Positions 6,501-48,841 of a DNA stretch of 64,000 bases are shown here, one piece after another. Under the pieces are notes generated by a model that saw only the letters and a list, made by a program, of their open reading frames with translations, made no database searches and had not been told where the DNA came from. A program made the translations under genes and the position numbers. Numbering within the stretch: the stretch's first letter is position 1; every line of letters begins with the position of its first letter. The DNA is taken from positions 1,984,001 to 2,048,000 of the forward strand of contig NC_068972.1 in assembly GCF_016808095.1 (NCBI RefSeq). Reading direction: 5' to 3'. The DNA comes from Vigna angularis. Taxonomy: Eukaryota; Streptophyta; Magnoliopsida; Fabales; Fabaceae.

Positions 6501-9500
6501 ATAAAGAGATCCAGTAAAACATCTCAGATATTGAAGTCTTAATTTTTAAAAATAAATAGCAAAACATTTTTCCCGGAAACTTTATTTTTCACTATCCAGA
6601 CATTTTGTCACTGTTCCAAAAATTCAAGTTTTTTTGTATTCGTTGAAGGTGAGAAATTGCATGTTATATATAACTAACAGTGTTCAATGGAAAAGGAAAA
6701 CGACTGTATAAAGGAAAACAACTGTATAAAAACAACAACCAATCCTATCTTGGTAGCATGGATCACACAATGCCATAGTATTTCTATCTGACAAGTCAAG
6801 ATAAAATTCCTGAGTAAAGAATCGATGTCAAATTATATCAGCAAATTATTCTACACTTATGTTTCTAATTTAATATCAGCTTACCTAAATTATTCTTACA
6901 TTTGTCAAGATTCACATTCATTATTAACCAAGATAGGATTCTCACTTTTATCTCTAATATTGTCTAAACTTAGTTAAGTGAATAAGGCATTTCTTACATT
7001 ATTCACTGCACATGCATTTTTTCTATATTCCCACTTCCACTTGCTCATTTGCCGTGAAATGTTGCATCCACTCTCATCCAATCTTTAAACAACGGGATCA
7101 AAAATATTGAAGAAAACGAAGTAAAAAATTATGCTGACTTTTTCGATCCATGTGAAGATGTTACACAGTGCATAGTAGAGTTACTGTATGGGGTTTTATC
7201 ATCGTTCGGAATCCTTTTTCATTTTTATGTGAATCAGTTTTTTTTTCTTAATTCAGGGAATTTATTTAATTTTAAGAGTTTTTTTATATAATATTAGTGC
7301 TTATTCTATTCAAATAAGGATTCAGTTTTAACCTTGGATTCTTAAGTGACGGATCCAAATAAGAATTCAGTTTGAACTTCAGATTCTTAAGTGATCTCTC
7401 TTCCTACCCTCTGTTACTTTGTTTTCTATCCTTGCTCTAATGAGAAACTGAATTTGCAACCAAAGTTCTGCTACATCATTTTTACTCAGCAATGATACAA
7501 TTATCAGTCAATTCCAGCATTCTACCTTCTCCAAATTTTAAATAGTTTTCGTGGGAGAATCACATAGGCATTGTTGGAAATCTTGTCCAAATTTGGAAGA
7601 AAGTTGAAATCCATACTTTTCATTTTTCAAAATAGAAATAATATGTAAAATAGCTTTTAAAGGAGCTCGCAATCATTGAATAAAATGAATCTGGTTATGT
7701 CTATGCAAAAGCAATAATTTTGACGGTAAAGTTCAAAGATGTTAACCAAGAATCTCCGATGAACACATTGATTTTGCATGTTCACATCAATTCTGCTAGT
7801 GCAAAGTGCAAAAAATCATGTAAAACATAATCCTCAAGAAAAAATCTAATGCAGACAGACTTATTACAGCGCAAATTCGTATATATTTATAATTTTCAGA
7901 AAGTAAAACAAAATATTTTGTACCTCTTCTTTGCTCTCTTTCAGTGAAGTTTCTTCCATTGTTTGGCATTCCCCGTTGTATTGCATTTCATTTGTTGAGC
8001 TATTACTCACATATCTATGGCCTATATCCTCCTCTTGTTCAGATGGAAACTGTTCTACTTCTAGGGCAATCTCCGAGTTATCATCTTTAATAATCAAACT
8101 TCTACTTGCAGGCCTTTGGTCAATATAATCACGTGACATTTCCAAGAGGTTTGAAGAGGCAGGTACATATCCCTCTCTTTGAATTTTCCTTCTTTTATGC
8201 TGCGGACATGAATTCCCAACATCATAAGTGGAACTTCTTAAAATCTGGAAGTCAGCTGAAAAACTGGTAATTTTTCCAACGCTGAGCAATGTCTGCCGCA
8301 ACAAGTCACGATCTTGACACAAGGTATGTGGGGCCGGTTCTGCCAAACTAACATTCACATTATCCAAAGGAGCAGAAACTAAGGACCCAACAGTGAAATT
8401 TGTAACATTCTCATCTGTGGACTTTTGCAGATCATTTTCAGAAACTGCTTCAGAAAAAGAATATGCCAACCTAGCACCACTTCCACCATTTTTTACTTTA
8501 CTGTTTACTGAAACAAGTTTGAGTGGCATGACTCCTTCTGACAAACTTCTTGATGAATTTTCACCAACAACTAGCGAAGGACTTGACTGATTCAGCAAGG
8601 AAGAAGTAACAACACATAGTTCATTCTGCACCGTACGTATCTCTTTGTCTGGTGATACAGCACTTAGTGTTGTCCTAGTTATGCCTTCCTCCTCAAAGTG
8701 GCTTGATCGGGATTCCATATGTGGCCCCTCTTTTCTGATCAGTACTTCCTGCATTTTCCTCAAAGGTATATCCCCCAAAGAGTTGTGCTTACTTTCGCAT
8801 GCAGGAGAAATTTCCTCTCCGAGTAAATTTAAAGATTCCAACGAATTCAGAGATTCTTCTCCTGGTGGCACTCCCTGTTGTCCCTCTTTCAAATCAGGAC
8901 AACAAATTCCGCTTATATTTCTCTGATCTACATCATCAAAATTAAGCTGCTTAGGCTTCGCAGACATAATAAAATCAGAGGGCTGCTTTGACATTGATAG
9001 ATTCAGCCCAAACTTAGGGCTAAGACAAGAAAGATCGTCTTCAATTAACCCATGAAAGTACTCATCAACTTCACCAACAATTGCAGCAGACGTGTGCTGA
9101 ATATTATCAATAGGAATGACATCAGATGGTACATTTTCTTGGGCATCCAAGACTTTTTTATCCACCACTGTTTCGATGTAATCTGATCCTTCTTGTAAAG
9201 TCCCGCCATCTAAATTGGAAGAACTCACTGGCCTTAATGGTCCTTCGTGTGAACAAGTAGCCACAGTTCTCATCTTTCCAGAAGCAACTAGTGCGGCAAC
9301 ATTGTCCTTCTCTGCAAAACCCCTGTCATTTTCTATATCTAATTTGGAATACTTTGGACTTGAAGATAACCTTCTAACATCCAGTTCGGTAAGCTGTACA
9401 TTCCAATATTTCTTACCTGCAGATTTGGAGCAGGCATCACTTTCACAGAAATTGGATCTGGAAGACTTCAATACTTCTTCAATCTTTCCAGAACCACTTC

Positions 9501-16475: not shown

Positions 16476-17779
16476 TATCTATTCATCTTCATCCGGTAGA
16501 TGTCACTTTGACAACATTTTCAATTGCAAAACTGGTTTGCAAAGTGCTACTCATCATTGTTAGCACATTGTCAAAAGAATAAATTATGAGAATTTTTATT
16601 TCCATTTTTTCTATTGCAATTATTGTATATTTTGATCGTTATTTATATGAAGTAACATGTACTTGTTTGTAATCGTGATAAATAATTTTTTAATTAGGTA
16701 ATTTCGATGGGGAAAGTGAAAAACAAATGAAAATTGAAAACAGAATAAAAGGTTTGTTGTAAATCTAGTTACGAATTTGTTAAGTAAGAAATGAAAAAAA
16801 AAATAGAACATAAGATATGAAGAACCACTAACCAAAAAATATAAAATTCCTGACAAAATCTCTAAATCATATACCACAAAAATAACTAATACCTTACATA
16901 TAATAGAACTGTGCATAGAAAATAGATGGATCAACTAAAAAGAATAAAGTGGAATAAAAAAAAAGTGGAGACGAGAGGTTCAACTCTAACATTGTTTTGA
17001 GAGGGTGATCTCAATAATTAAAAAAAATTGAAATGAATAATGTCTGAAGTGTTTTTTATTTATTTTACTTATTTTATAAATATTTTTAATAAATAATTAA
17101 ATATTTTACAATTTATTTTTCTTTTTTAGATAAATTAATTGTTTTTTTTATTTTATCATCAATTTTTATTTTAAAATATAATATTAAAATTTATAAAAAA
17201 TATTAATTATATTTAAATATTTAATATTATTTAATTTATTTATAAAAGAAAGTGGGGGTATGCAATTTTACTTTTTAAAATGAATTTTAAATTTTATTGT
17301 TTTCATTTTTTAATTTTAATTTCTTTTAATTTTATTGTCCAAATAACTCGTTTTTTTTTTTTTAAATTTACTGAATGAATAAATTATTTTCTTAAATTAT
17401 CTTAAACACTTATATATCATAGCAGTATTTACAGCTTTTTTTTTCTTAAAGTCATAAAACAACTATTAATATCATTTAAAAGGATTTATGTGTTTTAAAA
17501 ATTATGAATTATTGAATATGAAGACAAATTTCTTCAGAAAACGCTCCCTGTTTATGTAACATGTATCATGCAAGTACCCAGATGAAAAAAAAAAGTTAGA
17601 TTTACCTTACTTTTTCTTTCGTTATTAGTGAAAAATAGTTTGTCACGCATTCTCTCATGTTACTTTAATTAATATTTTTAGTTAAAATTCATTAAATAAT
17701 GTCACACGCGAATGATTAAGCATTAAATTTGCTTCGTTAGATAACTTTTATTCAATAAAAATTAATTAATGAGCATAAC
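16476..17779. other. Spacer between the GIR1-like gene and the retrotransposon
   Basis: Contains the 3' UTR of the preceding gene, then AT-rich sequence with no recognised gene. The last five bases, ATAAC (17775-17779), are the left target-site duplication of the LTR element. Confidence 0.5.
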
Positions 17780-18386
17780 TGTAAGACCCGTGAATTAGGA
17801 AGGTGGGACAAGGTGGTCACCCACCATTTCCCTAAAACACGGGTGCTTGTTTGGAGGAGGGATGCATTATTGATACAAGGAAAGAAGAAAAGGGGGCGGC
17901 TGGGGGAAGAGGGGGTGTTTCAGTTTTTTTTTATTTTGGGGGTGTCTTTTGGGAGAAGGGAATCAGAGAGCGTAGGAAGTTTATGGGGGACAGTGTGTTT
18001 CGTTTGTTTTTGGCTTGAAGAGTGAGAGAGAGAGAGCCGTGAGGGAGAGGGAGCAGCAGGAGGAAGGGAGCCTTCCTTCCTTCCGTTTCCAGCCGTCCGA
18101 AGATCACCTGGGAGCTTTACCAACTTCAGGAAGACTGAGATGGATCTGGGTTGAGTTGTTGCAAGGTTTGCTGGGAGAAGAAGAAGTGAAGAACTCTTAA
18201 AGATTGGAAGAAGATCAAACTCTCTAGAAATGATTCAAGGAGGTCTTCAAGAGGTAAGGGGAGCTAGATCTTTTGTTTGATTGATTGTATATGCTTTGTA
18301 TGATGCAAATCTGGGTAAAATCTGGGAAGAAAGGGTTGAATTTGATGTTTCTGGAAATCTGCAATTCTGCAGAAATTCTGCAGAAC

Positions 18387-18933
18387 CGTTCGTCCAATTT
18401 GATCCAAATTGGACGTTCGTCCGTTTAGAGCCACATTGGACGTTCGTCCAAATGGCTCGATCAAACGTTCGTCCAAGACTTCAACTCTTTGAGCGTTCGT
18501 CCGCGTTCGTCAGCGTTCGTCCAGACTACGAGCGTTCGTCCATGACTTCAACTTGTGAGCGTTCGTACAAATGGCTCGACCAAGCGTTCGGCCTTAAATT
18601 CAGTGTTGAGCGTTCGGCCTTTGAGCGAGTGTGAGTGAGCGTTCGTCCTTAGTTCAATTCTTAGCGTTCGTCCTTGGTTTCATCTGTGAGCGTTCGTCCA
18701 TTTGTCCAAACCGAGCGTTCGTCCAAAATGATCAGCATTGAGCGTTCGTCCAAACAGTGAGTGAGCGTTCGTCCGAATATATGAGCGTTCGTCCAAATAG
18801 TGGAGCGTTCGTCCAAATTGTTGAGCGTTCGTCCAAAATGTGGAGCGTTCGTCCAAATAGTGAAGCGTTCGTAGCGTTCGTCCTTAACACATTGATTTGA
18901 GCGTTCGTCCTTAAATTGAGTGAGCGTTCGTCC
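18387..18933 (+). repeat. CGTTCGTCC array in the 5' LTR
   Basis: About 20 exact CGTTCGTCC cores plus about five variants (CGTTCGGCC, CGTTCGTAC, CGTTCGTCA) occur in 550 bp, mostly as GAGCGTTCGTCCAAAT with irregular spacing of 10-45 bp. It is CpG-rich in a very AT-rich background. The same array is at 24255-24801 in the other LTR. Confidence 0.95.
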
Positions 18934-19335
18934 AATAGTGTCCGGTGAATAGTACTCGTCCAAATAGTATTTTACAAATATGTTGAATTTTAAGTTCCTT
19001 TGCTTTCGGATTGAATTATGTGTATCAATGTTTGGAATATTATCTATGACATGAATTATGTGAATGTATGAGATATGTTGGAATTGTTGGGATAATATGG
19101 TGGTATCTGATTTTTCCTAATTGAGGTTAAGATTCAAAGTAACAGTAAGTATGTTATTTAAATATTTCGGTTGCAATTTATGAATGCATGTTCATGTAAT
19201 CAAGATTGGTTGAAAGGGTGTGATTATAAGTGGTTTATGATGTACATTGTTGGTCCAAAAGAAATATCATGAGATTTAAAATGGTCGGATTGAATCGGAA
19301 ATTTAGATCCCTCGGTGGGATCAGTTGGTGTAAAG

Positions 19336-19780
19336 AATGAATGTGGGAAGCTTAGCCGGTTGTTCATCCTGATGTTCCGTGAGTACTCGTCCTCACGTAG
19401 AGGGGGTACGTCATGTGTGGGAACGGCAGGAGGTCCTAGTCCTAGGGTATCTGGACAGATAGGACTAACCTCGGGTGGCAGCTGATGACAGTTCCAGTTA
19501 CTACATCACCCGGGTGCACGAACACCGAAGCTACACAGAGACTCAGAATTTTATTATTGAGAATTGTAAAGTATGAATGTGGGAAGCTTAGCCGGTTGTT
19601 CATCCTGATGTTCCGTGAGTACTCGTCCTCACGTAGAGGGGGTACGTCATGTGTGGGAACGGCAGGAGGTCCTAGTCCTAGGGTATCTGGACAGATAGGA
19701 CTAACCTCGGGTGGCAGCTGATGAGAGTTCCAGTTACTACATCACCCGGGTGCACGAACATCGAAGCTACACAGAATTCA
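19336..19780 (+). repeat. 236-bp tandem duplication in the 5' LTR
   Basis: Two near-identical copies begin around 19336 and 19572 (both include ATGTGGGAAGCTTAGCCGG and a CATCACCCGGGTGCACGAAC block); the period measured at that motif is 236 bp. The right LTR carries the same pair at about 25204-25648, so it predates the insertion. Confidence 0.92.
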
Positions 19781-20355
19781 TTCTAGTCCGGACGAGTCTG
19801 TCTATGAAGTAACGAGTCGGTCTATAAAGTAATAAGTCGGGGTATAAAGTAACAAGTATTGTAATGTTGGTTTACCATTTTTGGATGACTTTTGCATGTT
19901 GTATGAGTGGGTGGAATTATGATTTAATGAATAGGCTCTAATTGTTCTTTTATACGAATCTAAGAATGATTATATGAATTACCTATGCTATATGTATAAC
20001 ATGCTTTTATATCTAGCTCACCCTTGCATTGTTTTTATCATGTGCTGTTTGGGTATGTTTCTTTGGCGATGATCATCCATTTGGATGGGAGCAGACGTTG
20101 TTGAAGAGGTTTCCCTTGAAGCAAGAGCTGGAGGTTGTTGATGTTGCAGAATAGTCTTCTTAGAGTTTCCTGATTGAACACTTGTAGTGTTTAATCCTTT
20201 CAACTGTTTAGGTTTAAATTTTCAGTGTCTGTTATTGGTGAATGACTGTAATTTCATATTTAATTACACTTCATACTCCGACTGTTCCCTATATTTGGAT
20301 GTTAACGTCTTTATTATATAATATTGGTTATTATATAATCGGGATGTTACATTAA

Positions 20356-20367
20356 TGGTATCAGAGC
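20356..20367 (+). other. Primer-binding site for initiator tRNA-Met
   Basis: TGGTATCAGAGC starts 4 bases after the 5' LTR and is complementary to the last 12 bases of CCA-tailed plant initiator tRNA-Met. A tRNA gene with that exact 3' end is at 43866-43937. Confidence 0.95.
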
Positions 20368-23184
20368 AGTTCGTCCTTAGGATGACCTTTGTGTTGTGGG
20401 TTTGCCGTGTCTTCTCTGTGAAGACTTGGGTGTAGATGGTATGATGTACCATTTCTTTCAAGTCTAGATTGTGGTGTGTGTATCTAACTAGAAGTTTTGA
20501 GAACAGAAAACGTCTTGATAGGAGTGATGAGGGTGCACACTCATGACTTTTACTGTAGATGATTTTCCTTTCTTAATTCTGAAGGTTAGAGGTAAGAAAG
20601 AGTTAGAGTTTCAGCGTTGTTTCCTGTAGTAATTCCTGTCTTGTTCTTATTTTGTGGTAGTGTGATGTGCTCTATAGTAGTGTTGGAATGCATATTTAAG
20701 GACAATTTGAGTTGTATACTTTTACTGGAATTGGTTTAAGCCTTTGAGACAAGTTCTCGCCTCGAAGATAGAAGTTAGAAGACTAAAAGTTAAGCTTCGG
20801 AGGGCTAGTGAAGATATTACAGTTTGGGAAGTAAAGTTATGGGTGAAGAAAATTTCAAGAAAACAAAGTCACAAGATCTTATATCATACGTTCGCAAGAA
20901 GTTCAGAGGTTAGATTTAGAGAATTTTTGGATAAGCATGGTTATAACAAGATTTGAGAAATGAGTTGGGTATAGTATATCAGTGATGGGTGGAATCTGAA
21001 TAAGAGAATTGATAGATGGTTTGAAGCTTAAGTTAAGAAAGAAATAAGTGGACTACGGGAAATCGTTATTTTGATACGAAGTAGAAGAAGAGTTGAGTTT
21101 GAAGGTTAGAATAAGATGAGCTTTGAGTAAGCATGGGTGTGACAAAGTTTGAGAGATCAGTTTAGTTCAGTGTATCAATAACGTCAGAGGTTAGAAGAAA
21201 AGGGTTCGAGGAGCAGTGTGTAAAACATAGATCGGATTCAAGGAGGGTGAAATAGAAGCCTGATCTCCAAGCGGAGGGAACATGAAATGTGTGAGGAGAA
21301 TTGGAGTACTATAGGACTGTGAGTTGAATAACCAAATGGAATGGTTAAACATGAATCTCAATTGGATAATGCATAGTCAAGTTTAGAAGAATGTTTCAAG
21401 ATTAGTGGTTCGTATAGAATAAAGTTTGGATCATTGGCTGAGATGAGAGATTTCAAATGTTGAAGGAAGGAGTACACCAGAATGCCAGTTTGGTAAGAAA
21501 GTATAAGGTCAGAGAATTAAGAGCACAATGGATGGAGAAAGATTTTAGAATAGATGATAAAGGGTGGCTGTAGTATAAGTTGCTAAAGAGGGTATCGAGA
21601 ATGATCAGAGAAGTTTGGGTTGGTTGAGATGTTTAGAGTTATGAAGTTGCATGTTGTGATAAAGTTAATTTTCTTTGGGTATGGTTTTATGGTGATGTTC
21701 AGTGTTCGGCTGAGTTTGATCAAGAGAGAAGTGGATGTTGAATGATGGATTGCAGAAGGCAGTGAGTTGGTAAGTTCAGATAAGGTCAGAAGATTAGTGG
21801 TGTTGGTTAAGAGTATCTTGAGGTTTGGAGGATTAAAGATAGGGTTTGTGTTTTGACGATTTCGAGTTGAAGAGGGCAATTCTTGAAGAAGAAGGTTTTA
21901 AGTTAATCTGGACGTGATGAGTGCAATTAAGAAGAGTTATGAGTGATGTGGCGTTTGTGGAGTTAATCTAAGGGCTCAAGTTTGAAGTTTATTTGGAGTG
22001 GTTTCTTGTCAGGGAAGGAGAACGAAGGTGGTGCATCAAGAATAGTTGAGTGGAAGATGGAAGCAAGTGTTATGAGGATTCAAGATGTTTGTAAATTGCA
22101 GATGAAGAAGAGATGATGTTGTTCTTTCGTAAGATTGAGATGTGATTCAAGGGATGTTTGTTATTCCAAGATAGTTCTCTAGTGCTTTATAGTCTTCCAT
22201 AGAAGCTTCGTGTTTCAAGAAGAAAAGTCACCAGTTATATATCAATTGCGGATCAAATTAGAAAGTGAAGAAAAAGGGGTGTAATGAATATGTGAAAAAG
22301 AGAAGATAAATCGTTATGAGGTAAGGGTTTTGATTGGTTTTCTGCAACAAGTATGGGATTTTATAACTTGGAAAAGTGGAATTCACTTTGGAGGGGAGTC
22401 TTAGGCAACACCAGTGTTTGAAATTTTTGAGTGGTTCCTGTTTAAGTCGTGCAGTGCAAGAGGAAGATGAAGGTTGAGTTAGAGCAATAATATTTTGGAC
22501 TCAGTATAATCATAGGGAGAACTACAAGGTTGAAGAATCGCAGAAGAGAAATAGAGGACATGTTGGCATAGTCTAGTATAAGTCTTAACAATCAGGAGTG
22601 ATTTTGGGCATGGTCGCTTTGGGGAGAAGAAAACAGTGTTGAGGAAATGGAATGACGAGGCTATTATGCAAAGGAAGAGTTTTCAGAGTTTTCTAAGGTC
22701 ATAAAATTTCTGAGAAAGGTTCTTCGAGGGTGATCTTTTGCTGGTTACAGTTGTCATGAAGGAAGTGTTCTTTTAAGTAAATTGGTGAGTAAGGAAGTAT
22801 AAAGATCAGAGTAGCGCAGCGGATGATGGTGAGCATGTGATTGTCAGTAACAGGTATGCATGAAGAACTTTAAAAATTGTGGATTTGTGGTTGTGAGGGA
22901 CAAGTTCTTTGAAACAGTATTGGTGTTGATATATGAGCATGAGTCGGGGGTGTTTGGTAATCTTCAAGAGTCAGAAGTGAGTTTAGGTGTGAAAGAATCA
23001 TGTGTCAGGCAGGGAAGATAAGTGAGCTTTTGGGTTGCAAGCTACAGGGTCAACTTTAAAGTTAGAAAGTGTTAGTGGCTTTGGAATGAGAAGAGTGGGT
23101 CAATGGGCGAAGGATACTATTTGAGTTGTGGTCTTGAGTTATAGTGGCAATCTAGAGGTAAGGTTATGTTAACAGACGATCAAG
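20368..23184 (+). other. Interior of the gypsy element, largely non-coding
   Basis: The strand is rich in G and A, broken by stops in all frames, with no zinc knuckle, protease or integrase motif that I could see. One short open stretch (20744-20956) has no recognised similarity. It looks like a decayed or rearranged gag-pol region rather than a new gene. Confidence 0.7.
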
Positions 23185-23514
23185 AATAAGTATACGTTGC
23201 TGAGAATAGATGATTTGATGGATCAACTACAAGGAGCTACAGTATTCTCTAAGATTGATCTGAAGTTTGGCTATCATCAAATCTTAGTGAAAGCGAATGA
23301 TGTGCAGAAGACGGCGTTCAGGTCTAGATATGGTCACTACGAGTATGTGGTTATGCCGTTTGGCGTGATTAATGATCCAGCCATTTTCATGGACTATATG
23401 AGTAGAATTTTAGACCCTTCTTGGACAAGTTGTGGTGTTATTTATAGATGGCATACTGGTCTATTGTAAGACTCGAGGAGAACATGAAGATCACCTAAGG
23501 TCAGTGTTTGAGGT
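23185..23514 (+). pseudogene. Ty3/gypsy reverse transcriptase relic
   Basis: The frame reads [20 protein letters not shown], then [22 protein letters not shown], all hallmarks of gypsy RT. The next block, normally FGVTNAP, is FGVINDP. A frame change follows about 23408, after which FIDGILVY replaces the catalytic FIDDIL motif and EHEDHLRSVFE continues. The loss of an Asp in the active-site motif plus the frameshift make it non-functional. Confidence 0.92.
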
Positions 23515-23637
23515 TGAGAGTATGCAAGCCAGTAAGGATTTGTCAGTTCAAGTGCAACAAGTAAGGATAATTTGGGAAAAACCTACCTAGGATTGTTCCG
23601 GTAAGCTTAATTTTCGAGGACGAAAATTTTTGTTGTT

Positions 23638-23645
23638 GGGGAGAA
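23638..23645 (+). other. Polypurine tract
   Basis: GGGGAGAA directly abuts the 3' LTR, as expected for the plus-strand primer, and follows the CGAGGACGAAAATTTT block. Confidence 0.85.
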
Positions 23646-26219
23646 TGTAAGACCCGTGAATTAGGAAGGTGGGACAAGGTGGTCACCCACCATTTCCCTA
23701 AAACACGGGTGCTTGTTTGGAGGAGGGATGCATTATTGATACAAGGAAAGAAGAAAAGGGGGCGGCTGGGGGAAGAGGGGGTGTTTCAGTTTTTTTTTAT
23801 TTTGGGGGTGTCTTTTGGGAGAAGGGAATCAGAGAGCGTAGGAAGTTTATGGGGGACAGTGTGTTTCGTTTGTTTTTGGCTTGAAGAGTGAGAGAGAGAG
23901 AGAGCCGTGAGGGAGAGGGAGCAGCAGGAGGAAGGGAGCCTTCCTTCCTTCCGTTTCCAGCCGTCCGAAGATCACCTGGGAGCTTTACCAACTTCAGGAA
24001 GACTGAGATGGATCTGGGTTGAGTTGTTGCAAGGTTTGCTGGGAGAAGAAGAAGTGAAGAACTCTTAAAGATTGGAAGAAGATCAAACTCTCTAGAAATG
24101 ATTCAAGGAGGTCTTCAAGAGGTAAGGGGAGCTAGATCTTTTGTTTGATTGATTGTATATGCTTTGTATGATGCAAATCTGGGTAAAATCTGGGAAGAAA
24201 GGGTTGAATTTGATGTTTCTGGAAATCTGCAATTCTGCAGAAATTCTGCAGAACCGTTCGTCCAATTTGATCCAAATTGGACGTTCGTCCGTTTAGAGCC
24301 ACATTGGACGTTCGTCCAAATGGCTCGATCAAACGTTCGTCCAAGACTTCAACTCTTTGAGCGTTCGTCCGCGTTCGTCAGCGTTCGTCCAGACTACGAG
24401 CGTTCGTCCATGACTTCAACTTGTGAGCGTTCGTACAAATGGCTCGACCAAGCGTTCGGCCTTAAATTCAGTGTTGAGCGTTCGGCCTTTGAGCGAGTGT
24501 GAGTGAGCGTTCGTCCTTAGTTCAATTCTTAGCGTTCGTCCTTGGTTTCATCTGTGAGCGTTCGTCCATTTGTCCAAACCGAGCGTTCGTCCAAAATGAT
24601 CAGCATTGAGCGTTCGTCCAAACAGTGAGTGAGCGTTCGTCCGAATATATGAGCGTTCGTCCAAATAGTGGAGCGTTCGTCCAAATTGTTGAGCGTTCGT
24701 CCAAAATGTGGAGCGTTCGTCCAAATAGTGAAGCGTTCGTAGCGTTCGTCCTTAACACATTGATTTGAGCGTTCGTCCTTAAATTGAGTGAGCGTTCGTC
24801 CAATAGTGTCCGGTGAATAGTACTCGTCCAAATAGTATTTTACAAATATGTTGAATTTTAAGTTCCTTTGCTTTCGGATTGAATTATGTGTATCAATGTT
24901 TGGAATATTATCTATGACATGAATTATGTGAATGTATGAGATATGTTGGAATTGTTGGGATAATATGGTGGTATCTGATTTTTCCTAATTGAGGTTAAGA
25001 TTCAAAGTAACAGTAAGTATGTTATTTAAATATTTCGGTTGCAATTTATGAATGCATGTTCATGTAATCAAGATTGGTTGAAAGGGTGTGATTATAAGTG
25101 GTTTATGATGTACATTGTTGGTCCAAAAGAAATATCATGAGATTTAAAATGGTCGGATTGAATCGGAAATTTAGATCCCTCGGTGGGATCAGTTGGTGTA
25201 AAGAATGAATGTGGGAAGCTTAGCCGGTTGTTCATCCTGATGTTCCGTGAGTACTCGTCCTCACGTAGAGGGGGTACGTCATGTGTGGGAACGGCAGGAG
25301 GTCCTAGTCCTAGGGTATCTGGACAGATAGGACTAACCTCGGGTGGCAGCTGATGACAGTTCCAGTTACTACATCACCCGGGTGCACGAACACCGAAGCT
25401 ACACAGAGACTCAGAATTTTATTATTGAGAATTGTAAAGTATGAATGTGGGAAGCTTAGCCGGTTGTTCATCCTGATGTTCCGTGAGTACTCGTCCTCAC
25501 GTAGAGGGGGTACGTCATGTGTGGGAACGGCAGGAGGTCCTAGTCCTAGGGTATCTGGACAGATAGGACTAACCTCGGGTGGCAGCTGATGAGAGTTCCA
25601 GTTACTACATCACCCGGGTGCACGAACATCGAAGCTACACAGAATTCATTCTAGTCCGGACGAGTCTGTCTATGAAGTAACGAGTCGGTCTATAAAGTAA
25701 TAAGTCGGGGTATAAAGTAACAAGTATTGTAATGTTGGTTTACCATTTTTGGATGACTTTTGCATGTTGTATGAGTGGGTGGAATTATGATTTAATGAAT
25801 AGGCTCTAATTGTTCTTTTATACGAATCTAAGAATGATTATATGAATTACCTATGCTATATGTATAACATGCTTTTATATCTAGCTCACCCTTGCATTGT
25901 TTTTATCATGTGCTGTTTGGGTATGTTTCTTTGGCGATGATCATCCATTTGGATGGGAGCAGACGTTGTTGAAGAGGTTTCCCTTGAAGCAAGAGCTGGA
26001 GGTTGCTGATGTTGCAGAATAGTCTTCTTAGAGTTTCCTGATTGAACACTTGTAGTGTTTAATCCTTTCAACTGTTTAGGTTTAAATTTTCAGTGTCTGT
26101 TATTGGTGAATGACTGTAATTTCATATTTAATTACACTTCATACTCCGACTGTTCCCTATATTTGGATGTTAACGTCTTTATTATATAATATTGGTTATT
26201 ATATAATCGGGATGTTACA
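23646..26219 (+). repeat. 3' LTR (2574 bp)
   Basis: Second copy of the LTR, near identical to 17780-20351. It has one extra GA in a GA run near 23890-23905 and C at 26006 where the 5' LTR has T at 20138. Its own CGTTCGTCC array is 24255-24801. The ATAAC target duplication follows at 26220-26224. Confidence 0.97.
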
Positions 26220-26224
26220 ATAAC

Positions 26225-41079: not shown

Positions 41080-41760
41080 AAAATTTTACACTCTTGTTTA
41101 TTTTCTTCAATGAATATGTCACATCCGTTAACGGATATGGTTAACAGATATAGTCACGTCCGTTTAAGGTTTATGTTTTTCTATTTAATTTCTTTTAGTT
41201 TTTAGTTTATTAATTTATTGTATTTTAAATTAATATATAGATATCATTTATTTTTTTTAATTTGTTACATAATTATATATAAATTAATTTTATTTTATTT
41301 AATGAAATAATTATTATTAATTTAATTAAATTGTATTATTTTTTAATTGATTATGTTAAACCTATGCCATATCCATTCAAGGTTTTTGTCTTTTTTTTAT
41401 TTGTTTTGTTTTTAGTTTATTATTTTATTTTATTTTAAGTTAGTATATAGATATTATTTAAATTTTTTTCAAATTTATTACGTATTTATATATAAATTAT
41501 TTTATTTTATTTAATGAAATAATTATTATTAACTTATTTAAATCATATTATTTTTTAATTGATTATGTTAAACGGATATATCACATTTATTAATAGATGT
41601 GATCACATTCGTTCAAGGTGTTTTTTATTTTGTTTTTCTTTGTTTTTAGTTTTTTTTTAAATGCCACATTTGTTTCTTTATAATATATCATGTAATTATA
41701 TTTAAATTAATTTTATTTTATTTAATGAAATAATTATTATAAAATATATACAAATAAAAT
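41080..41760. repeat. AT-rich tandem units with CACATCCGTT motifs
   Basis: Three units of about 140-230 bp each contain ATTTTATTTAATGAAATAAT and are separated by blocks such as CACATCCGTTAACGGATATG and CCATATCCATTCAAGG. The unit composition matches the foldback element at 47536-48841. Confidence 0.7.
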
Positions 41761-47535: not shown

Positions 47536-48841
47536 AGGGTTATTCCCTACACCACCCCACTTTACTCCCTGCACCACCACATTTTTTTAAATTCCAAAAC
47601 TATCTTTTATATTTTAAAATATGCTACACCCTACCTCTTTTCTTCAACGGATGTCAACATCCGTTGAGTTTCTTTTTTTTAATTTTAGTTTTTTAATTTA
47701 TTGTATTTTAAATTAATATATAAATATTATTTAATTTTTTTAAAATTATTACTTAATTATTTATAATTTTATTTTATTTTATTTAATAAAATAATTATTA
47801 TTAATTTAATTTATGTATTATTATTTAAATAATAATTAAAATATTTTTTATAAATATATTAAAACGGATGTGCCATATCTGTTGAATTTTTTTTTTAGTT
47901 TTTTATTTTAAATTAATATATAAATGTTATTTAATTATTTTAAAATTATTATTTAATTATTTATAAATTTATTTTATTTTATTTAATAAAATAATTATTA
48001 TTAATTTTAATTTATGTATTATTATTTAAATAATAATTAAAAATTTTGTTATAAATCTACTAAACGAATGTGCCACATCGATGTGGCAACATCGTTGAAT
48101 TAGTTTTTTTTTTTAGTTTTTAGTTTTTTAATTTTTTATATTTTAAATTAATATATAAATATTATTTAATTTTTTTAAAATTATTACTTAATTATTTATA
48201 AATTAATTTTATTTTATTTAATAAAATAATTATTATTAATTTAATTTATATATTATTATTTAAATAATAAATAAAATACTTTTTAAAAATCTATTAAATG
48301 GATGTGGTACATCCGTTGAAGTTTTTTTTTTAAATAAAAATAATAAACTAAAATATAAAATATGTTCATGGATGTCAACATCCGTTGAAGGTGAAACGAA
48401 TGTTGACATCCGTTATATAAAAGGGCAAATTAGGTATGAGGTGGTGTAGAGAGCGGTTGGTAGTGGTGGAGGTACTAAAAACTAAAAAAAAAACATTCAA
48501 CAGATGTGGCACATCAGTTTTAATATATTTATAAAAAATATTTTAATTATTATTTAAATAATAATACATAAATTAAATTAATAATTAATTTATTAAATAA
48601 AATAAAATAAATTTATAAATAATTAAGTAATAATTTAAAAAAAATTAAATGATATTTATATATTAATTTAAAATACAATAAATTAAAAAACTAAAAAAAA
48701 AAGAAAATTCAACGGATGTAACACATCTGTTGAAGAAAAGAGGTGGGGTGTAGCATATTTTAAAATATAAAGAATAGTTTTGGAATTTTAAAAAATATGG
48801 TGGTGCAAGGAGCAAAGTGGAGTGGTGTAGGGAGTAACCCT
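47536..48841. mobile_element. Foldback element with long inverted ends
   Basis: Left end starts AGGGTTATTCCCTACACC; the right end on the minus strand starts AGGGTTACTCCCTACACC. The inverted arms continue for about 170 bp (through CAAAACTAT and AAAATATGCTACACCC). The interior consists of about three direct, AT-rich units of roughly 190-230 bp (47690-48310) and one inverted unit (48490-48700), with CGGATGT / ACATCCG palindromes between them. A partial duplicate of the left arm precedes at 47335-47500. No coding and no clear target duplication. Confidence 0.72.

Follow-up and report, generated by a model that had tools for sequence, protein, structure and literature searches.

Several systems described in plants bear on the arrays considered here, and they are summarized from the excerpted text of the reports cited. 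Sireviruses, which are Ty1/copia elements, carry 8 to 32 copies per element of RM boxes, mostly CGG-CCG palindromes, that are clustered in the LTRs upstream of the TATA box and often form CpG islands, a signature common to elements otherwise little alike; extra motif clusters occur in their internal non-coding region, upstream of ENV (PMC2829016). VANDAL elements contain dense arrays of short motifs bound by their own anti-silencing VANC protein; the target of VANC21 is the 9-base motif YAGTATTAY, which lacks a CpG, and VANC targets lie in the same orientation within non-coding regions or introns, in tandem repeats that change fast and vary among related copies (PMC5735166, PMC10398659). Retand and other plant LTR elements possess length-variable, family-specific tandem repeats between pol and the 3' LTR (PMC11963269), and in the REM/GDE1-CLSY3 system of Arabidopsis repeated short motifs direct a chromatin pathway to loci, including 86 sites of motif 1 (PMC12270911). 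The arrays described below, found in LTR elements of Vigna angularis, are built on a short core with two CpGs. We propose that they may be clusters of putative sites to which a factor with DNA sequence specificity binds, serving LTR expression or anti-silencing, a reading to which we assign a probability of roughly one half, or slightly above.

The locus was analysed within a stretch of 64,000 nucleotides of V. angularis DNA, referred to as the window (G+C, 31%), which harbors a retrotransposon whose features are collected in the table below. Its LTRs have the ends TG...CA and are bounded by a 5-bp TSD, ATAAC, at 17775-17779 and 26220-26224. The two LTRs are identical apart from one substitution (20138) and one AG unit (18024), and the insertion is therefore recent. 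We take the primer-binding-site-like segment to match initiator tRNA-Met. A reverse transcriptase (RT) piece is the sole coding remnant recognised in the internal region (20352-23645), so that the element, apparently a recently moved and non-autonomous one, was presumably mobilised with the help of relatives. Downstream of the array, each LTR contains a 236-bp direct duplication (98% match; 19329-19775 and 25197-25643) representing the part common to the LTRs of several related families, and TATA-like words lie far downstream of the array, at LTR positions 2536 and 2553. Elsewhere in the window, tandem repeats that are AT-rich and have a period of ~200-235 bp occur at 41159-41740 and at 47689-48313; their units look similar, and the two are possibly related to each other.

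Features of the LTR element in the window; positions are those of the window
Feature	Position	Strand	Basis
5' LTR (TGTAAGACCC...GATGTTACA), 2572 bp	17780..20351	+	self-BLAST, end inspection
Putative splice-donor-like AGGTAAG (CAAGAGGTAAGGGG), upstream of array	18252..18258	+	sequence
Array in 5' LTR, 25 CGTTCG cores, 20 exact CGTTCGTCC	18387..18933	+	
Local tandem block in array, 20-bp period, 6.6 copies, 82% match	18739..18872	+	
TGGTATCAGAGC, primer-binding-site-like, just 3' of 5' LTR	20356..20367	+	sequence
Reverse transcriptase fragment, 90 aa (PF00078, E 2.7e-11)	23197..23466	+	Pfam match
GGGGAGAA, polypurine-tract-like, adjoins 3' LTR start	23638..23645	+	sequence
3' LTR, 2574 bp	23646..26219	+	self-BLAST, end inspection
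Identical array in 3' LTR, 25 CGTTCG cores, 20 exact CGTTCGTCC	24255..24801	+	

A preliminary description of this DNA had reported about 20 exact copies of a 9-base word over some 550 bp, with an identical array in the other LTR, and both statements are borne out. All 40 matches to CGTTCGTCC in the window are on the + strand, vs 0.02 expected from shuffles; outside the element, a single CGTTCG occurs in the window, at 7203. The typical unit consists of GAGCGTTCGTCC and a short spacer. The spacing had been called irregular but is instead quasi-regular: 21 of the 24 gaps measure 19-29 bp (mean, 22.4 bp), and the CV is 0.25 vs 0.78 for random placement of 25 cores, none of 2000 simulations being as even. 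The accompanying suggestion that simple slippage does not explain the array stands in so far as most spacers are mutually unrelated, 6% of spacer pairs in the window array exceeding the shuffled mean by more than 3 sd, and falls short in so far as the array includes a local tandem block. Given its even spacing and mostly unrelated spacers, the array is not a random scatter, nor is it a simple satellite. The 25 cores, clustered as are the 8 or more copies of Sirevirus RM boxes, constitute a CpG-rich block in the LTR: the CpG o/e is 1.73 in the array, dropping to 0.53 once the cores are taken out, and 0.62 in the LTR beyond it.

The 9-base word proved too long a definition of the core. In 10 of the 11 element sets, more than half of the CGNNCG words have AA/TT or AG/CT in the middle, and this predominance argues that the core common to families is CGYTCG, equivalent to CG-AR-CG on the opposite strand, with flanks that are family-specific. 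The fractions are 27/30 in the window array, 36/42 in the L011 LTR, 33/37 in L014, 13/20 in L025, 10/13 in the L016 LTR, 27/29 in L024, 81/92 in L015 and 104/113 in L022 (L-numbers designate stretches fetched from the 448-Mb genome). The predominance is weaker in L009 (LTR, 33/61; rest, 31/45), and L017, the exception, does not fit (41/118); in the window outside the element the fraction is 6/22. Flanks read GAG...TCC in the window family, and L016, L050a and L059 have the near-palindromic GGA...TCC. The full dyad GGACGNNCGTCC is the consensus in some families only.

The core-bearing words are very strongly over-represented in the genome examined (448 Mb in 33 contigs, of which ~0.36 Mb was read, window included). 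There are 31,388 occurrences of CGTTCGTCC and 18,474 of CGCTCGTCC. Two CGRTCGTCC words, serving as a CpG-matched control, together occur 4,126 times and are thus jointly ~12 times rarer than the two CGYTCGTCC words, and CGTCTCGTC, a scramble with the same letters and two CpGs, occurs 712 times. The places listed by pattern searches were the first in the genome, mostly on contig C1.

At least four groups of LTR elements, otherwise barely similar or not similar at all, contain arrays of CGYTCG, which may run in the sense direction, the antisense direction or both. A search for the window family, in which 40 of 1573 first-look candidates were scored, gave at least 73 matches; counted across the family as the preliminary description had proposed, cores number 18-32 CGTTCG in each of the 20 LTR copies fetched (L029-L048), all of them retrieved with a query that itself contained the array. 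An LTR segment similar to that of the window occurs in L011, L014, L025, L024, L051, L053 and L055, where the arrays have other spacers. In L011, L014, L016 and L025 RT precedes integrase, the order of Ty3/gypsy elements, and the open gag-pol frames of these four relatives yielded gag/pol-type Pfam families only; antisense frames of 150-252 aa are present in L011 and L014. L016 belongs to a separate Ty3/gypsy lineage, with an RT-RNaseH 48-50% identical to those of L011, L014 and L025, and carries its cores antisense in a 663-bp LTR. L009 and L010 form an LTR pair, each LTR at least 3 kb long and the two 17.7 kb apart, which is matched (at L009) by L050, L056 and L059; L058 in turn has a 185-bp match to L050. 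The arrays of these last four lie in LTR-like or internal non-coding stretches; DUF7745 is encoded by L056 in two frames, and gag by L059. The lineage labels 'Ogre-like' and 'Tekay-like' are our presumptive assignments. In L059, the internal stretch that holds the gag frame also contains 32 CGARCG in ~650 bp (1750-2401), with 3 more on the opposite strand nearby. L015 and L022 are bounded by 375-380-bp terminal repeats, and their non-coding interiors are packed with cores pointing either way, and L049 (2196-2709) and L057 (650-1560) hold regular CGCTCG-core arrays with 35-bp and 105-bp steps, respectively, so that in this family the same core lies inside a true satellite-like repeat.

The dissimilarity of these hosts was assessed by BLAST with masked cores (E 1e-3), comparing LTRs or internal arrays of the window element, L011, L016, L009, L058, L015 and L049. 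No match was found for 18 of the 21 pairs, the exceptions being window/L011 (the LTR segment), L009/L015 (30 bp) and L015/L049 (101 bp). A wider sample was drawn from 24 places having CGTTCGTCC and a fixed five-base word 250 bases away; seven were fetched, picked non-randomly as looking unlike the window family, and all seven match one or another of the groups already described, L049 and L054 over just 100-164 bp. With respect to array structure, 15 of 16 arrays have at most 22% of spacer pairs above the shuffled mean plus 3 sd, the exception being L049 (100%). Evenness of spacing, judged for same-strand cores within array bounds set by eye, exceeded random placement at no more than 1 in 2000 in seven of 15 arrays, at 27 and 65 in 2000 in L015 and L051, and was not beyond random in the remaining six (247 or more in 2000).

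Some of these features would be expected of a neutral minisatellite, in which the repeated cores provide a homology anchor for slippage, unequal exchange and template switching between units, an explanation that we consider unlikely. Cores would then persist as the junction common to the units and spacers would be reshuffled, without any function being required. It accords with the local 20-bp tandem block, with the fully regular array of L049, and with the units gained and lost between close relatives, a kind of change that the preliminary description had proposed to look for and that does occur. Spacer words common to different groups point the same way: 18 array pairs have at least 6 spacer 10-mers in common, the largest excesses falling within related groups, and L050b and L054 have 14 in common vs 1.1 expected, an excess that makes some exchange or common descent of units between array groups possible. 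Nor are cores better conserved in recent comparisons. Among 12 window-family LTRs (9 of 21 were left out, 6 as LTR mates and 3 as distant forms), polymorphic non-CpG sites amount to 12/122 in core vs 24/381 in spacer (P = 0.22), and polymorphic CpG sites to 3/50 in core vs 4/19 elsewhere (spacer 4/14, flank 0/5; P = 0.085). Differences within ungapped blocks run at 0.026 for the core and 0.030 for the spacer, the core being slower in 39 of 72 pairs and faster in 33; CpG differences in the same blocks are 0.038 in cores, 0.285 in spacers and 0.341 in flanks, values drawn from few sites and many pairs. We see no clear sign of selection on the core within the window family over this recent interval, and the expectation that cores would mutate more slowly than their spacers fails among the closest relatives. 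An initial alignment of the family, made with 15 of the 21 sequences and no LTR mates, had given core diversity of 0.071 vs 0.195 for spacers; it is not relied on, because an aligner stacks cores even of non-corresponding units. Under stricter tests the difference was gone for the nearest relatives.

Deeper comparisons, on the other hand, favor the core. Across seven LTRs of the L016 family (L016 and 6 fetched of 20; 77-98% identical), diversity is 0.065 in the core without its R position, compared with 0.22 for spacers and 0.109 for the remaining LTR sequence; the R position itself stands at 0.353, and the A preceding it, the third core base, at 0.13. Segregating sites are rarer in core than in spacer (9/53 vs 57/125, P = 0.0003), though not clearly rarer than in the rest of the LTR (118/421, P = 0.10), and CpGs are polymorphic at 4/21 in cores vs 12/20 elsewhere (P = 0.011). 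At a matched flank identity of 0.80, core CpGs are kept in 94.8% vs 65.4% for other CpGs, and the middle two bases are equal in 58.5% of the same cells (106 core cells, from overlapping pairs). At one corresponding place in this alignment (~290), L060-L063 read CGAACG and L064 and L065 read CGTTCG, L016 itself having no core there; it appears that in the latter two the core has been retained on the opposite strand. Comparisons in other families at flank identities of 60-90% (the pair L009/L050 contributing no cells) show the exact core kept at 0.667 (n=186), other 6-mers at 0.273 and CpG 6-mers at 0.429, and masking the cores before alignment gave the same direction (0.815, n=27 overlapping cells, vs 0.532 and 0.679). 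Core columns were picked by consensus, which favours conservation, and the pair counts are not independent. Overall, the deep comparisons argue that the core is under selection. The contention of the preliminary description that the core itself is selected, perhaps as a multimeric protein-binding or (anti-)silencing site, thus draws support from these comparisons and from recurrence of the core in unrelated elements, and is opposed by the nearest relatives. A neutral minisatellite could hardly place the same core, in opposite orientations, in otherwise dissimilar LTR lineages. Nor would it lead one to expect that CpGs, which normally change faster than any other sites, would be kept while the bases between them vary, or that an opposite-strand core would stand at a corresponding place.

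The reading of the arrays as clusters of putative binding sites rests on the form of this conservation. In methylated DNA, CpGs normally disappear before other sites do, and the keeping of two CpGs four bases apart over long times would be the behavior of a binding site in double-stranded DNA. The freedom of A/G between the CpGs, the irrelevance of strand and the sharing of the core by unrelated elements suggest the same. The site would be CG-AR-CG, set in some families within the near-palindrome GGACG-NN-CGTCC; where arrays are densest, sites would recur about every two helical turns, a spacing that fits side-by-side occupancy and also fits tandem origin with worn spacers. A factor acting in trans, either host-encoded or supplied by another element, would be recruited strongly by multiple sites, and its recruitment would help LTR transcription or escape from methylation; arrays would then be kept and re-amplified, their spacers turning over by tandem duplication and mutation. 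This suggests that many retrotransposons of this plant share putative binding sites for one protein. By extension, a single trans-acting factor may read CG-AR-CG at ~50,000 sites, with at least four unrelated LTR groups having independently built or captured dense arrays of what would be a TE-wide operator for expression or anti-silencing. We advance this wider proposal tentatively, as one more apt to fail than to hold; such a factor would, we infer, be of Vigna type.

The same recognition could in principle serve the opposite end. The core might be a beacon through which a protein of the host, such as a Pol IV-guiding one of REM type, recruits methylation, with the elements retaining the core because its loss is slow or because silencing limits damage; this we judge improbable. 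Arabidopsis REM factors do guide Pol IV to specific sequence repeats, but the motifs given in the excerpted report (TTTTGCTTAT repeats and AAGCGGAT repeats) are other words (PMC12270911). Derivatives of the CpG-to-TpG/CpA type, as expected of methylated DNA, number 37 beside 51 intact cores in L022, 26/45 in L015, 18/35 in L053 and 15/33 in L054, and L022 is not obviously old, its terminal repeats being 99.2% identical. On the other side, cores are mostly intact in those elements whose two LTRs show 99.8% identity or more, the intact and same-strand decayed counts being 25/0 in the window, 19/1 in L011, 18/2 in L014, 11/1 in L025, 10/2 in L016 and 15/0 in L009. These counts were confined to same-strand words, as the 15 opposite-strand decay words of the window derive largely from the GAGCG unit prefix. 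Because such elements have mostly intact cores, and because both of the closest known systems point the same way, we prefer activation or anti-silencing over silencing as the role of the putative binding sites; the decayed cores of L022 weigh against that preference.

Were the word itself irrelevant, the arrays might merely supply many CpGs to readers of methyl-CpG density such as MBD proteins, in keeping with the array's elevated CpG o/e within a CpG-poor LTR and with the role of MBD7 in active demethylation in Arabidopsis, as given in the excerpted source (PMC4416881). This we hold to be very improbable, in view of the restricted middle dinucleotide, illustrated above by the window array and L015, and of the scarcity of CGRTCGTCC words relative to CGYTCGTCC words. 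A coding role for the array, as the source of a repetitive peptide, or an action at the RNA level can be virtually dismissed: ORFs of 117 and 100 aa do cross it, and a protein search with an antisense ORF (18664-18963, -) found, among 79 candidates, two matches (44% and 46% identical), the V. angularis 'hypothetical proteins' LR48_Vigan03g080500 and VIGAN_04083400, which are probably spurious gene models derived from such arrays, but no reading frame survives units of, for example, 20 and 25 bp, and arrays may be sense, antisense or of mixed orientation. Two further candidates, heat-shock elements (some dyads overlap GAAnnTTC) and Pol III B boxes, were set aside, since what is conserved are the CpGs, which neither is known to require. 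Of 15 sequences, 10 have a word resembling a splice donor on the sense strand (L014, L050, L054, L048 and L016 do not); as such words are also antisense in 6 of 15, a leader intron is only hinted at.

If the binding-site reading is correct, unrelated retrotransposons of one plant would have a single recognition code in common, and the expression of LTR elements under DNA methylation would become directly testable with tens of thousands of natural sites and variants. The pattern known from Sireviruses and VANC would be extended to Ty3/gypsy elements, with convergence on one core. For annotators there is a caution, in that some 'hypothetical proteins' are probably spurious translations of arrays of this kind.

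It remains to place the arrays among described systems. The preliminary description knew of no named element of this kind, which holds, within the literature consulted, for the core itself and must be tempered by the CpG-rich motif boxes known in plant LTRs (PMC2829016). Among the literature matches listed for the letters of CGTTCGTCC and GGACGAACG, none by title concerns plant transposons; the titles and abstract openings listed for work on Vigna LTRs and on gypsy CpG-island motifs do not describe the core, and the excerpted text of PMC10373317 and PMC4856725 does not mention it.

Set beside the excerpted accounts summarized at the outset, the arrays show both resemblances and differences. 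Like the RM boxes of Sireviruses, the cores are numerous (25 copies per LTR in the window) and CpG-rich, and in some families they form the near-dyad GGACG-NN-CGTCC; the additional internal arrays of Ogre-like elements (the L059 stretch) likewise recall the internal clusters of Sireviruses. They differ in the core itself, CG-AR-CG here and CGG-CCG there, in their hosts, which are Ty3/gypsy elements of at least two lineages and non-autonomous elements rather than Ty1/copia, and in position, the window array lying downstream of a donor-like site and the Sirevirus boxes upstream of the TATA box. The window family shares with the target arrays of VANC21 and VANC6 a dense motif in one orientation, fast-changing repeats and a non-coding location, whereas other core-bearing families are of mixed orientation, the core has two CpGs where the VANC21 motif has none, and it is common to unrelated LTR families where VANC acts on its own family. 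VANDAL elements moreover encode VANC, and the open gag-pol frames of intact relatives here gave gag/pol domains only. The arrays resemble Retand in comprising non-coding tandem repeats inside LTR elements, but one core extends across several families, in contrast to the family-specific repeats of that element; from the REM/GDE1-CLSY3 system they differ in their words and in number, with ~50,000 CGYTCGTCC sites vs 86 sites of motif 1. Hence the present arrays are perhaps best viewed as working like the Sirevirus and VANC cases while belonging to neither, by virtue of another class of element, another core, and its sharing across families.
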